From Cryobacterium sp. CG_9.6 (GTDB lineage Bacteria; Actinomycetota; Actinomycetes; Actinomycetales; Microbacteriaceae), in NCBI RefSeq assembly GCF_029893365.1, contig NZ_JARXUZ010000001.1, forward strand, positions 434,001 through 498,000: 64,000 bases of DNA, in the 5' to 3' direction. Under the pieces are notes generated by a model. That model made no database searches. It was not told the DNA's origin and worked only from the letters and a program-made list of their open reading frames with translations. Below are positions 5,163 to 52,649 of the stretch, piece after piece (position 1 is the first letter of the stretch; every line of letters begins with the position of its first letter). The position numbers and the translations under genes are program-made.

Positions 5163-5249
5163 GGTTAGCGTAGCGGCCGCCGATCTGGGGCGCTGCGGCG
5201 CGCGGTTACCGTCGCGCCCACCGATATGAGGCGCGGCGGGCGCGCGCGG
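5163..5249. repeat. Palindromic intergenic repeat, copy 1, right half
   Basis: This is the continuation of the split repeat after the IS3-family element. It matches 5345-5431 base for base from GGTTAGCGTAGCGGCC to GGCGGGCGCGC. It begins with the second GGTT of the target duplication and holds the right arms of both hairpins: GCGTAGC (5168-5174), and CGCCCACCGATAT shortly before 5230. Confidence 0.85.
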
Positions 5250-5283: not shown

Positions 5284-5430
5284 CAAACGGATGCCGCGGC
5301 GAGCACGACCCGTCGGCGCACCCGATATCGGTGGGCGCTACGCCGGTTAGCGTAGCGGCCGCCGATCTGGGGCGCTGCGGCGCGCGGTTACCGTCGCGCC
5401 CACCGATATGAGGCGCGGCGGGCGCGCCGG
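5284..5430. repeat. Palindromic intergenic repeat, copy 2 (intact)
   Basis: This intact copy lies 182 bp from copy 1 once the insertion is removed. It contains two nested inverted repeats: ATATCGGTGGGCG (5325-5337) with CGCCCACCGATAT (5397-5409), and inside them GCTACGC (5337-5343) with GCGTAGC (5350-5356) around the loop CGGTTA. It ends at the stop codon of the leftward aminotransferase gene, so it may act as a transcript end or 3' structure for that gene. No coding sequence is evident between 5163 and 5434. Confidence 0.85.
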
Positions 5431-17390: not shown

Positions 17391-17437
17391 GCGCAACAGT
17401 GGCCCCTTCAGCAACAGTGAAGGGGCCTTTGTTGCGC
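17391..17437 (+). terminator. Intrinsic terminator after aceB
   Basis: An outer pair GCGCAAC (17391-17397) / GTTGCGC (17431-17437) surrounds the strong stem GGCCCCTTCA (17401-17410) / TGAAGGGGCC (17418-17427), followed by TTTGTT. It lies 30 bases after the aceB stop. Confidence 0.88.
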
Positions 17438-20158: not shown

Positions 20159-20221
20159 TCTCCAACTATGCCACTCCGACCCGCACCGACGGTGACGACC
20201 CGCGATGGGACAGGCGGCAAA

Positions 20222-20269
20222 CGGCGCCAATCGCACCTTCTCTGCGCCGGGAGGGTGCGATTGGCGCCG
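20222..20269. repeat. Solitary AATCGCACC-type palindromic repeat
   Basis: CGGCGCCAATCGCACC (20222-20237) is followed after 16 bases by its exact reverse complement (20254-20269). The core AATCGCACC and the GGAGGGTGCGA arm are those of the nine-unit array at 51041-51815. It lies between the divergently transcribed nuclease and response-regulator genes, 82 bases before the latter. Confidence 0.85.
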
Positions 20270-20351
20270 ATCACGAAGAGCGGGGGCAGGGCGTGCTCAC
20301 AGGTGACTTGGGCGTTTCGCAGGGCTGGTTCATAGGAAACTCTGGATACTT

Positions 20352-22732: not shown

Positions 22733-22734
22733 CT

Positions 22735-22780
22735 GGTGCCAATCGCACCTTGCGGGGCCGGTGGCAGGTGCGAATGGCGC
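22735..22780. repeat. Solitary AATCGCACC-type palindromic repeat
   Basis: GGTGCCAATCGCACCT is followed after 15 bases by AGGTGCGAATGGCGC, an almost perfect inverted repeat starting two bases after the kinase stop codon. The core matches the unit at 20222 and those of 51041-51815. Its position right at a gene end would suit a 3' mRNA structure, although no U-run follows. Confidence 0.8.
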
Positions 22781-22814
22781 TAGTGTTCGCGGAACGTGGG
22801 TTGTTCGTGTCGGT

Positions 22815-23105
22815 GAGGCGGCGCATCCGCTGGCTGGATCGCTTCGCGGCACCTGTTTTGTCACGCGGCACTGGTTTAGACGAGTGCCGCATGTCAAAAC
22901 GAGTGCCGCGCGAGGGGTTTCCGGTGCGGAGCGGCCGCAGGGGTGCGGTCTGGCAGGGGCTGCGGCGTGCCCGCGTGGAGGGAGTGTGCGGGGCGTGGCC
23001 GACGCATCCGCTGGCTAAATCGCCCCGCGGCACGCGTTTTGTCGCGCGGCACTCGTTCAGACGAGTGCCACGTGGCCAGATGAGTGCCGCGCGTGAAACG
23101 GGCGG
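22815..23105. repeat. GAGTGCC-family modular repeat, two units
   Basis: This covers most of the 435-base gap between two convergent genes. Two units start with CGCATCCGCTGGCT (22822 and 23003, 181 bases apart). Each continues with GCGGCAC-TGTTTTGTC-GCGGCACT and then the palindrome around GGCACTCGTT-AGACGAGTGCC, with further ACGAGTGCCGC copies behind. Apparent reading frames here are in low-complexity Arg/Ala-rich shadow frames, and no gene or ribosome binding site is convincing. Confidence 0.85.
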
Positions 23106-35579: not shown

Positions 35580-36232
35580 ATCGGCTCGCGGCACGTGTTT
35601 TGTCGCGTGGCACTTGTTTAGACGGGTGCCGCACGCGTAAACGAGTGCCGCGACTCGGGTTTCCGGTGCGAGGCGGTCGCGCGGTGCGGCATGGTGGGAG
35701 CTGGGGTGGGCGAGCAGCGATGCGGGCCTGCGCGACGTATCCGCTGGCTGGATCGGCTGGCGGCACGTGTTTTGTCGCGGGGCACGCGCGAACGAGTGCC
35801 GCACGCGCAAACGAGTGCCGGAGATGGGTTTCCGGTGCGGGTGTGTCGGTGCGGGGCGGCCGCAGGGCTCCGGCGTGGCGGAAGCTACAGCGTGCCCGCC
35901 TGGCGGGAGTGTGCGGGGCGTGCGCGACGCATCTGCTGGCTAGATCGGCGCGCGGCACGTGTTTTGTCGCGTGGCACTTGTTTAGACGGGTGCCACGTGG
36001 CCAGACGAGTGCCGCGCGGGATGTGACCGCGTCGAAACGAGTGCCGCGCGCGCAAACGAGTGCCGCGCGAGGGGTTTCCGGTGCGGTGCGGTGTGGCGGG
36101 AGCTGTGGCGTGCCTGCAGCTGGCCTGCGCGACGCATCCGCTGGCTGAATCGGCTGGCGGCACCTGTTTTGTCGCGCGGCACTCGTTTAGACGAGTGCCG
36201 CGTGGCCAGACGAGTGCCGCGGGGCGGGCTAC
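35560..36232. repeat. GAGTGCC-family modular repeat, four units
   Basis: This locus fills the whole 649-base gap between two convergent genes and enters both ends. Unit starts (CGCATCCGCTGGCT or one-base variants) are at 35564, 35736, 35928 and 36133. The units carry GGCACGTGTTTTGTCGCG, the palindrome GGCACTCGTTTAGACGAGTG and repeated AAACGAGTGCCGCGCG, AGGGGTTTCCGGTGCGG blocks. No gene other than shadow frames is present. Confidence 0.87.
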
Positions 36233-49866: not shown

Positions 49867-51021
49867 ATGGCCAAGAAGCAAAAGTTTGACACCGTCGCGA
49901 TTCACGCCGGTCAGGAATTTGATCCCTCCACCGGCGCGGTGATTCCGCCGATCTACCAGACCTCCACCTACGTGCAGGAGAGCATTGGCAACCTGCGCGG
50001 CGGCTACGAGTACAGCCGCGGCGGTAACCCCACGCGCACGTCGCTCGAGACGCTGCTCGCAGCGATCGAGGGAGGCAAGCACGGACTCTCCTTCGCGAGC
50101 GGACTCGCCGCGGAGGACACCCTGCTGCGGGCGATTCTGAAGCCCGGCGACCACATTGTGCTGGGCAACGACGCGTACGGCGGAACTCACCGGCTGATCG
50201 ATCGGGTGCACGGTGCCTCAGGCATCCGCAACTCGGCCATTGATCTCTCCGACCTGCGCGCTGTTGAGAAGGCGATCATTCCCGGGGAGACGAAGATCCT
50301 GTGGATTGAGACCCCGAGCAACCCGCTCATGAAGATCAGCGACATTGCCGAGCTGGCCGACATCGGTCACCGGGCTGGCCTCGTCGTGGTTGTCGACAAC
50401 ACTTTTGCGTCTCCTGCCCTGCAGAACCCGCTGTCACTCGGCGCCGACGTGGTGGTGCACTCCACCACCAAGTACCTCGGCGGTCACTCGGACGTGCTTG
50501 GTGGCGCGCTGATCATCAACGACGACGAACTGGCCGAGAAGGTCACCTTCCTGCAGTTCGCGGTGGGCCCGGTGTCGGCGCCGATGGATGCCTGGCTCAC
50601 GGTGCGCGGAATCAAGACTCTGGCCGTACGCATGGACCGCCACTGCAGCAACGCGCAGGCGATCGCCGAGTTCCTTGACGGCCACCCCGCCGTCGACACC
50701 GTGTACTACCCCGGCCTGCCGAATCACCCCGGCCACGAGCTCGCCAAGCAGCAGATGAGTGGCTTCGGCGGCATGATTTCCTTCTCGTTCAAGGGTGGGT
50801 CGAAGGCCGCGCGCAAGTTCTGCGAATCCACGCACCTCTTCCAGCTGGCAGAGTCCCTCGGCGGAGTGGAGTCACTCGTGAACTACCCGTCCGAGATGAC
50901 GCACGCCTCGGTACGCGGCACCGACCTCGAGGTAGCCGACAACATCGTGCGTCTGTCGGTGGGCATCGAAGACGTGACCGACCTCCTCGCCGATGTGGAG
51001 GCCGCGCTGCCGCGTAAGTAG
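49867..51021 (+). CDS. metB: Cystathionine gamma-synthase / gamma-lyase
   Basis: This 384-residue PLP enzyme of the Cys/Met metabolism family has [47 protein letters not shown], the PLP Asp in [11 protein letters not shown], and Schiff-base K202 in [16 protein letters not shown]. Next to cbs it most likely acts as a cystathionine gamma-lyase (to cysteine), although family members in actinobacteria often do both this and gamma-synthase chemistry, and sequence does not decide. It is the last gene before the repeat array. Confidence 0.9.
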
Positions 51022-51040
51022 GTCGCCGCTGCCCGCCTGG

Positions 51041-51815
51041 CGCGAATCGCACCTTCCGGGGCACCCGGAGGGTGCAAACTCCGCTGGTGACCCGTCCGCG
51101 ACGGCCCGCCACGGGCTCGGTGGCGCGAATCGCACCCTCCCGGTGTGCGCGACCGTGTGAAGGCCGCTGGTGACGGGACCGCGCCGTCCCGCCTCAGGCT
51201 GGGTGGCACCAATCGCACCCTCCGGGCGCCCGGAGGGTGCGAAGGCCGCCGATCGCGCCACGGGCGCAGGTGCGCCGGGCCGCCGCGGCCTAGGTGGAGC
51301 CAATCACACCCTCCCGGGCGCCCGGAAGGTGTGAAGGCCGCCGGCGACCCGGCTCGGCCGTGTCGGAACGGCGTGGGTGGCGCCAATCGCACCCTCCCGG
51401 TGTGCGGGACCGTGTAAAGGTCGCCGGGGAGGTGACCGCAGGGTCGGGACCCACACCGGCGTGGCGTCGCTTGCGCCTTTCGGGTGTTCGGGAGGGTGTT
51501 AAATCCGGTGTTGAGGGGACCGTGGGGTTGTCGGCTCAGGTTGGCGCGCCCGCCTCTGACCGCCAGGGCGCCGGCCCGCCGCAGCCCGAGTGGAGCCAAT
51601 CGCACCTTCCGGGGCGACGGGAGGGTGTGAAGTCCGCCGGAGACCTGACTCGGCCGTGTCCGAACGGGCTGGGTGGCGTCGTTTGCGCCTTCCTGGGCGA
51701 CGGGAGGGTGTGAAGTCCGCCGGGGAGGTTGCCACGGGGTCGGGACTGAGGGTGGGTGGCGTCGTTTGCACCTTCCGGGGCGACGGGAGGGTGTGAAGGG
51801 CGCGAGCGGGTGAGG
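51041..51815. repeat. Nine-unit tandem array of palindromic repeats, 83-bp period
   Basis: The 812-base gap between two convergent genes is almost entirely this array. The AATCGCACC core (or the variant GTTTGCGCC) begins at 51045, 51128, 51211, 51302, 51385, 51469, 51598, 51681 and 51764. Spacings are 83, 83, 91, 83, 84, 129, 83 and 83. Each core reads AATCGCACCYTCCGG, then CGGGAGGGTGTGAAGGCCGC, which can form a hairpin. In unit 3 the palindrome from GCACCCTCCGGG outward is perfect. About 40 bases of less conserved linker separate cores. No gene is apparent. Confidence 0.92.
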
Positions 51816-51833: not shown

Positions 51834-52649
51834 TTAGGCGCGAGAGAACTCGGAGGCTCGCCTCACCTGGTCGGGGGTGGGACGCACGCCCGTGTAGAGC
51901 ACAAACTGTTCCTCGGCCTGAACGGCTGCCACCTCTGCCCCGGTGATCACGGTCTTGCCCGCCGTTCGCGCCGCAACGATGAGCGGAGTCTCGGACGGCG
52001 AGGCCACCACATCGAAGACCCAGGTTGCCGCAGCGATTGCGGCGGCCGGGAACGATACATCCTGCGCCTCCGCGCCACCGGCCATACCCACCGGCGTCAC
52101 GTTTACGATCAGACCGGCCTGCAACTCGCCCACCTCTGCTGCCCAGGCGTAGCCGTACAAGTCGGCCAGGGCTCGTCCCGTAACCTCGTTGCGGGCCACG
52201 ATCGTGCCGTCGGTGAATCCCGCATCGCGCAGCGCCGCGGCCACCGCCTTGGCCATTCCGCCACTGCCTCGCAGGAGTACCGACAGCCCGGTGGGGACAG
52301 AGTGCTGGGCGAGAAGACGCTGAACCGCCGTGTAATCCGTGTTGTATGCCGTGAGGTGACCGTTGTCATTCACGATCGTGTTCACCGAGCTGATGGCTGA
52401 CGCCGAGGCATCCATCTCGTCAACGAGCGCAATCACCTCTTCCTTGTAGGGCATCGACACGGCACAGCCACGGATGCCGAGACCACGCACGCCCGCAACG
52501 GCATGCTCAAGGTCGGTGGGGGCAAAAGCCTTGTACACAAAGTTCAGTCCAAGCTCGTCGTAGAGAAAATTGTGGAACCGGGTGCCGAGGTTGCTCGGGC
52601 GTGCCGCGAGCGAGATGCACAGGGTCATATCTTTGTTCAAAATAGGCAT
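51834..52649 (-). CDS. Shikimate 5-dehydrogenase-like oxidoreductase
   Basis: The 271-residue protein has an AroE-type substrate domain (LCISLAARPSNLGTRFHNFLYDELGLNFVYKAF, VRGLGIRGCAVSMPYKEEVIALVDEMDASASAISSVNTIVNDNGHLTAYNTDY) with the catalytic Lys in MPYKEE and Asp in NTDY. It also has a Rossmann domain (LLRGSGGMAKAVAAALRDAG). Replacement of the usual SxSxS start by SLAARPS and the lack of aromatic-pathway neighbours suggest a quinate/shikimate-like or unknown polyol dehydrogenase rather than the main AroE. It is divergent from a LacI gene, which may regulate it. Confidence 0.75.
   Translation of the reverse strand: MPILNKDMTLCISLAARPSNLGTRFHNFLYDELGLNFVYKAFAPTDLEHAVAGVRGLGIRGCAVSMPYKEEVIALVDEMDASASAISSVNTIVNDNGHLTAYNTDYTAVQRLLAQHSVPTGLSVLLRGSGGMAKAVAAALRDAGFTDGTIVARNEVTGRALADLYGYAWAAEVGELQAGLIVNVTPVGMAGGAEAQDVSFPAAAIAAATWVFDVVASPSETPLIVAARTAGKTVITGAEVAAVQAEEQFVLYTGVRPTPDQVRRASEFSRA

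Follow-up and report, generated by a model that had tools for sequence, protein, structure and literature searches.

Interspersed palindromes of the REP/BIME (PU) type have been known for decades, from E. coli and other bacteria. They are intergenic, palindromic and dispersed, occur both as singles and in clusters, and often lie at the 3' ends of genes; a RAYT is not needed by every genome that carries REPs. The accessible part of PMC12306157 describes REP roles as remaining unclear and E. coli REPs as lacking clear genome-wide clustering or periodicity, on a scale that differs from that of the inter-unit steps considered here, and, to judge by titles cited in that paper, there is precedent for REP/BIME repeats being associated with gyrase, IHF and Pol I. 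According to the accessible part of PMC5082802, a REP element of Bradyrhizobium japonicum comprises three palindromes in the overlapping 3'-UTRs of convergent genes. Intrinsic terminators are inverted repeats 3' of stop codons that convergent genes can share, and in CRISPR arrays partly palindromic repeats alternate with spacers about as long as the linkers seen here.

The locus described here belongs to a stretch of 64,000 nucleotides from Cryobacterium sp. CG_9.6, hereafter the window. It belongs to a class that is, like REP/BIME repeats, intergenic, palindromic and dispersed in many copies, single or clustered, frequently near gene 3' ends, but its arrays consist of longer palindromes (~50-64 bp) in the same orientation, phased at 7-8 helical turns. 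No RAYT was found in this genome: the Y1/RAYT transposase family PF01797 has 0 matches at E<=0.1, and the control matches in 8 of 14 genomes. We therefore call the arrays REP-like and not a REP-RAYT system; RAYT-driven REP is rejected, or at least weakened, for this genome. Like the Bradyrhizobium element, the locus has several palindromes in one convergent gap; that element, as far as the accessible text of PMC5082802 goes, differs in belonging to another phylum and in having no long phased arrays. Unlike intrinsic terminators, the array lacks a T-run, belongs to sequence families common to many loci and has regular multi-unit spacing. A CRISPR array, with near-identical repeats and unique spacers, is rejected: mean column identity among the units is no more than 69-80%, the linkers within an array are related (0.60) and the clusters are many and dispersed. 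Helical phasing of such arrays is not described in the literature searched, which consisted mostly of sources other than subscription journals and so yields a weak negative. The earlier note knew of no described element with this layout; that holds for the literature searched, although the class works like REP/BIME repeats.

The nine-unit array and its counterparts in this genome

Nine palindrome-like units stand head to tail at 51037-51806, inside an 812-bp convergent gap (Table 1). The nine units and their steps of 83, 83, 91, 83, 84, 129, 83 and 83 bp reproduce the earlier count exactly, and the gap is convergent as stated, with the + gene ending at 51021 and the - gene at 51834. The core of about 41 bases and linker of about 42 bases that had been proposed give way to units of 51 bp (50 bp for unit 3) and linkers of 32 bp in the 83-bp steps. 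The consensus of 24 own-genome copies, GTGGCGCCnATCGCACCTTCCCGGGCnCCGGGAGGGTGCGAAGGCCGCCGG, is an imperfect palindrome with a short centre. Units 4-6 and 7-9 resemble a segmental duplication.

Table 1. Array units, flanking genes and single array-type units in the window (CM R1, covariance model R1)
Feature	Position	Strand	Evidence and remarks
Cystathionine gamma-synthase gene, upstream flank	49867..51021	+	NF005871 648.8 bits, cut-off 513; ORF
Unit 1	51037..51087	+	CM R1 65.3 bits; RNA fold z -5.1
Unit 2, 83 bp after unit 1	51120..51170	+	CM R1 60.3 bits; fold z +0.8, no better than shuffles
Unit 3, step 83 bp	51203..51252	+	CM R1 60.6 bits; perfect inverted repeat in the central 30 bp (51213-51242)
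Unit 4, step 91 bp	51294..51344	+	CM R1 68 bits
Unit 5, step 83 bp	51377..51427	+	CM R1 63.3 bits
Unit 6, step 84 bp	51461..51511	+	CM R1 48.5 bits, lowest score among the nine
Unit 7, step 129 bp	51590..51640	+	CM R1 69.8 bits
Unit 8, step 83 bp	51673..51723	+	CM R1 63 bits
Unit 9, step 83 bp	51756..51806	+	CM R1 66.1 bits
Shikimate dehydrogenase gene, other flank	51834..52649	-	NF009202 459.7 bits, cut-off 306
Single array-type unit, near-symmetrical palindrome	20221..20270	.	CM R1 45.3/42.9 bits (two strands); 19/22 pairs
Single weaker array-type unit, directly 3' of predicted + gene end 22732	22733..22783	.	CM R1 38 bits

A 31-base core pattern, searched in the window with up to 3 mismatches on both strands, has 14 matches, all within the array, compared with 0 in 100 dinucleotide shuffles. 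Across the 3.54-Mb genome a core pattern of this kind has 26 forward and 19 reverse matches (0 for a backwards control), and two-strand matches to R1 at E<=10 number 144. Applied at E<=2 to the window plus 23 further own-genome loci, R1 yields 149 matches that reduce to 78 distinct places, some of them weak (the weakest at ~16 bits), in ~29 clusters of which 3 fall within a predicted ORF; as with REP/BIME repeats, the copies are many, dispersed and mainly intergenic. One shuffle of 360 kb of the genome contains no palindrome of 17/22 pairs. Among the 48 steps shorter than 320 bp, 26 are exactly 83 bp and 30 fall within 82-84 bp. A second nine-unit array, with one weak unit, occupies C1:2720593-2721374. 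A two-unit pattern finds five pairs in own-genome loci, at steps of 83, 83, 72, 72 and 83 bp, and none in five loci of other genomes. The possibility raised earlier, that no other regular arrays exist and the locus is a one-off duplication, fails on this recurrence, here and in other genomes, and is rejected. A phage or plasmid origin is rejected or weakened, as blastn found no match in two collections.

Other repeats were seen in passing. A second palindrome array of different sequence, GCCAACA..GGCCCCTT..AAGGGGCC..TGTTGGC, lies at L242:14230-17745 (C1:1164230-1167745), with motif steps of, for example, 84, 67, 93 and 52 bp; a palindrome of the GGCCCCTT/AAGGGGCC kind with 19/22 pairs occurs at window position 17414. 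Another palindrome family, GTCTCGAGACC..GTGAGC.., is found at L241:7257, 7404, 7551 and 9341 and at L248:8476, three of its copies being at exact 147-bp steps (~14 helical turns). A further family, with motifs resembling GAGTGCCGCG and 19-bp tandem repeats, is present at window positions 22887 and 35782-36225, and long linkers in the array at 431 kb (L058:4046, 4262) contain similar motifs. Paired 41-bp tandem repeats with the palindrome CGCTACGCCGGTTAGCGTAGCG occupy window positions 5163-5246 and 5344-5427, and L158, a locus of another genome, has a sequence resembling them close to its end.

Distribution, spacing and genomic setting

The earlier note proposed a profile search of the family for further copies, and these were found: R1 matches 5 of 120 family genomes at E<=1e-3 and, with the permissive threshold of E<=1, 27 of 40 congeneric genomes (own genome included in both counts). 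A generic model, R2, matches 7 of 9 chosen genomes at E<=0.5 and, at the level of the order, 8 of 297 genomes, own included, at E<=1e-4 with strict filters, some of these matches being single palindromes from other families. The relatives have near-perfect palindromes with different arms, and the arms vary even inside one genome, as in G125, with 103 two-strand R1 matches and at least three arm types; such variety within a single genome is awkward for one sequence-specific protein. In G052, which belongs to a different genus (g53), the matches listed (18 of 22) form 5 loci, 4 of which are pairs at 83, 83, 83 and 82 bp, and the other genomes of its genus that were tried, G160 and G213, have no R2 match. 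Steps of 73 bp occur elsewhere: in G148 as a pair (L233), beside a second pair of which one partner is weak (L230) and a triple spaced by 72.5 and 84.5 bp (L261); in G141 as a pair (L286); and in G140 as four units at exact 73-bp steps, with a diverged fifth ~72 bp further (L274). These 73-bp arrays in other genomes of the genus are one helical turn below 83 bp. The 73-bp pairs L283 (G126) and L269 (G140) are apparently orthologous, with flanks alike by eye, an identical step and near-identical linkers.

The nearest named hits, at 82% protein identity, come from Cryobacterium. No R2 match below E 0.06 was found at 80 named shikimate-dehydrogenase loci from Cryobacterium, Arthrobacter and others. 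In the fetched DNA of named Cryobacterium loci, metB adjoins aroE in 9 of 11, and the gap between the two contains no R1 or R2 unit; it exceeds 100 bp in 7 of these 9, and 6 of the 7 have other palindromes of at least 15/22 pairs, mostly GGGCCC-rich (L079-L085).

The steps prefer whole helical turns. The phase test took each distinct step once per array and omitted 82-85 bp, leaving 17 steps in this genome: 62, 72 (three times), 73, 91, 93, 97, 103, 129, 137, 145, 146, 167, 197, 201 and 216 bp. For these, R is 0.53 at 10.4 bp, and a free scan of periods from 7 to 16 bp places the best at 10.47 bp (R 0.54; p ~0.009 against a jitter of +-5 bp). For twelve of the 17, the nearest multiple of 10.45 bp is at most 1.6 bp away. 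The spacing at whole turns expected of a phased protein-binding array is seen here with 5 exceptions, the steps of 91, 97, 129, 201 and 216 bp, which are out of phase by 2.4-3.6 bp. The steps of 97 and 146 bp depend on one low-scoring unit (17.7 bits) in the array at 2720 kb and become 99 and 144 bp according to the strand used. Ten steps from other genomes (72.5, 73, 73, 73, 82, 83, 83, 83, 84.5 and 125 bp) give R 0.94. When own and other genomes are pooled, the steps outside 82-85 bp (n=22) have an R of 0.64 for a period of 10.4 bp, a best period of 10.45 bp, an offset of -0.6 bp and p 0.0004, with an effective number below n, given that a unit length is common to all arrays of a species and the 83s and 73s are not independent. 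A blunter scan of all structural palindromes with at least 15/22 pairs near other-genome sites finds little phase (R 0.21-0.28, n=56), and it mixes unrelated palindromes, mid-points (36.5 bp, half of 73) and noise, shuffled DNA having 43 palindromes per 189 kb at this threshold.

Linkers belonging to 83-bp steps (26, taken from 11 arrays) are 60% identical within an array, so that much of the regularity is due to tandem duplication. Between arrays identity is 0.353, close to random and slightly above shuffles (0.326, sd 0.004), so that some arrays are of common descent, foremost L069a, L069b and L075, whose linkers are related at 0.58-0.68. The linkers of most own-genome arrays otherwise look quite unlike each other, and the retention of the 32-bp length in most arrays without sequence identity is the core argument for a phase constraint.

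The palindromes avoid divergent gaps and are in excess in convergent ones. With genes predicted by a home-made codon-usage caller, the 29 own-genome clusters comprise 13 convergent, 11 co-oriented and 2 divergent placements and 3 inside a predicted ORF, and the 50 other-genome loci (L162, L170, L171, L173, L176 and L201 omitted, as well as the duplicates L178, L179, L189 and L200) comprise 28 convergent, 15 co-oriented, 2 divergent, 4 in an ORF and 1 open-sided. Among the 111 gaps of at least 60 bp in the own-genome loci, site gaps included, 28 are convergent and 30 divergent. Many units lie a few tens of bases from a predicted stop codon, with distances judged by eye; this location at 3' ends, together with the rarity of divergent placements, is again that of REP/BIME repeats.

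A concentration around the origin is a lead, weaker than it appeared at first. With dnaA at C1:201298, 25 of 27 own R1 clusters lie in the origin half, and among the matches listed for six relatives, 47 of 71 merged sites do so and none of the 71 lies beyond 0.79 of the distance from the origin to the opposite point; taken alone, G126 (9/17), G140 (9/16) and G141 (6/13) show no origin-half excess among the matches listed. In an unselected sample of this genome, R2 finds the other array type (L242) in the terminus half and nothing in nine origin-half samples. Convergent gene pairs number 13.3 per 100 kb in the origin half and 11.6 in the other (226 and 198 kb sampled). Further Bac_DnaA-domain matches occur at G000:C2:130476-130781, C1:143330-143608 and C1:1566603-1566881; the identical scores of the two on C1 suggest two copies of one mobile-element ATPase.

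Evidence for a role in DNA or in RNA

The expectation that each core forms a hairpin is borne out for part of the array. Against 100 mononucleotide shuffles of the + strand, units 1, 3, 8 and 9 fold clearly better (z -3.6 to -5.8), unit 8 reaching just -2.5 against a second, smaller shuffle set; unit 7 is intermediate (z -2.6), and units 2, 4, 5 and 6 are near chance (z +0.8 to -1.3), unit 4 folding well on the - strand (z -4.1). Taken as a whole, the gap has a more stable fold than 20 shuffles on either strand (z -6.3 and -5.5), as would be expected of a set of related inverted repeats. Between 50900 and 51950 there is no terminator-like site with a T-run and no Rfam match up to E=1, and at gathering scores Rfam identifies tRNA alone in the whole window. 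A known structured RNA family is accordingly rejected, and an intrinsic terminator, with its GC-rich stem and U-tract, is rejected or weakened.

Covariation differs with the set of units. Within the genome, 24 units give 0.130, below the shuffled 0.159, which we count against an RNA role. In an alignment of 36 other-genome and 12 own units (A4), 21 of 25 pairs have changes on both sides, and covariation is 0.518 compared with 0.175 for shuffled and at most 0.140 for slid alignments; all of these units were found by R1, whose structure term favours paired sites, so that the value leans upwards.

The mismatches, counted in 69 of the 78 units, are one-sided. On the + strand, G-T predominates over A-C in most arrays right of dnaA (32:0, 31:2, 28:2 and 29:5, for example), and left of dnaA the bias is reversed (7:36 at 2720 kb, 0:7 at 3310 kb), with an exception at 3343 kb (4:0) and a few small arrays without bias. 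In four arrays that lie between '<<' genes (L056, L067b, L068b and L069b), the + strand bias persists and so runs counter to the direction of the genes. We infer that the bias reflects replication-strand mutation and not selection for G-U pairs.

Judged from sequence, a DNA-level role, as a platform for a putative dimeric protein or a topoisomerase where convergent genes end, is favoured over terminator or small-RNA roles, because not all units fold well, the mismatches go with the replichore and not with gene direction, and the search for U-tracts was negative. Among the three functions suggested in the earlier note, a source of small RNAs accordingly loses ground on all three counts. The multi-hairpin transcription end is weakened by the missing T-run site, the four of nine units near chance and mismatches that show no bias towards a neighbouring gene's strand. 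The nucleoid-protein array fits best, given the preference of the steps for whole helical turns, with a mechanism that would operate as set out below.

Proposed mechanism and its rivals

The explanation that we prefer, although as a whole we place it slightly short of an even chance, is that the arrays are interspersed BIME-like palindromes at whole-turn spacing that a putative dimeric protein would occupy on one face of the DNA, forming a boundary in convergent gaps. What is observed is that the arrays recur, that their spacing has a preference, and that they avoid divergent gaps and are over-represented in convergent ones. The class would comprise intergenic palindromes of Cryobacterium and some relatives whose neighbours tend to stand at whole helical turns, most commonly 8 turns (83 bp) here and 7 turns (73 bp) elsewhere in the genus. 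As dyad sites, the palindromes may receive a dimeric protein or complex that binds DNA, perhaps a putative nucleoid-associated protein, perhaps a topoisomerase like gyrase (cf. E. coli BIME-2). Such a protein would dock on one helix face and link neighbours cooperatively, and the similar arrays in related bacteria do suggest a protein that grips one DNA face. In a convergent gap the result could be a topological or transcriptional boundary that blocks read-through and absorbs positive supercoils. Units would spread, and arrays grow, through copying of hairpin-forming DNA and tandem duplication, with selection maintaining the phase. The out-of-phase steps, the non-independence of the 83s and 73s, the duplicated linkers, the relatedness of some arrays, the little phase in the blunter scan, the variety of arms and the presence in no more than 8 of 297 genomes under strict filters are counted against this explanation. 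A more specific, chromatin-like version is doubtful; in it, the putative dyad-binding protein would polymerise on one DNA face at a species-specific 7-8 turns, insulate convergent gene ends and mark an origin-centred part of the chromosome.

The units could instead be selfish REP-like hairpins without a host role, spread in single-stranded form and multiplied by slippage, with a spacing set by the geometry of the copying enzyme. The abundance in G125 of near-perfect palindromes with several arm types and the similarity of linkers within arrays suit this account, and harmless insertions would likewise avoid genes and divergent gaps; we nevertheless hold it rather unlikely, considering that the genome has no PF01797 transposase and that the whole-turn preference of diverged arrays needs selection or recent copying. 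If the helical steps were coincidental, an 83-bp unit duplicated neutrally in tandem would explain the duplicated look of units 4-6 and 7-9, the linker identity within arrays and some of the relatedness between them. This account is very unlikely given that the steps outside 82-85 bp favour multiples of 10.45 bp, that other genomes use 73 bp and that G052 has 82-83 bp with different arms.

That the units act in RNA, as multi-hairpin 3' ends serving both convergent genes as bidirectional terminators or mRNA-protecting hairpins, is distinctly unlikely. Their frequency in convergent gaps, often near predicted stop codons by eye, agrees with it, as do the folding of the whole gap and the compensating arm changes across genomes. 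It is opposed by the lack of a T-run site, the near-chance + strand folding of four of the nine units and the own-genome covariation below shuffles, and G-U versus A-C mismatches track the replichore, against gene direction in the four '<<' arrays. RNA hairpins, moreover, do not require helical phase.

The observation is confirmed; its ingredients are ordinary and its register is unusual: helical phasing would be a feature new to the REP/BIME-like class, with a putative function at the level of DNA. A helical register that lies one turn apart between species offers a testable handle on REP/BIME-type function, and it points to double-stranded DNA held from one side, and not to RNA, as the form that matters.
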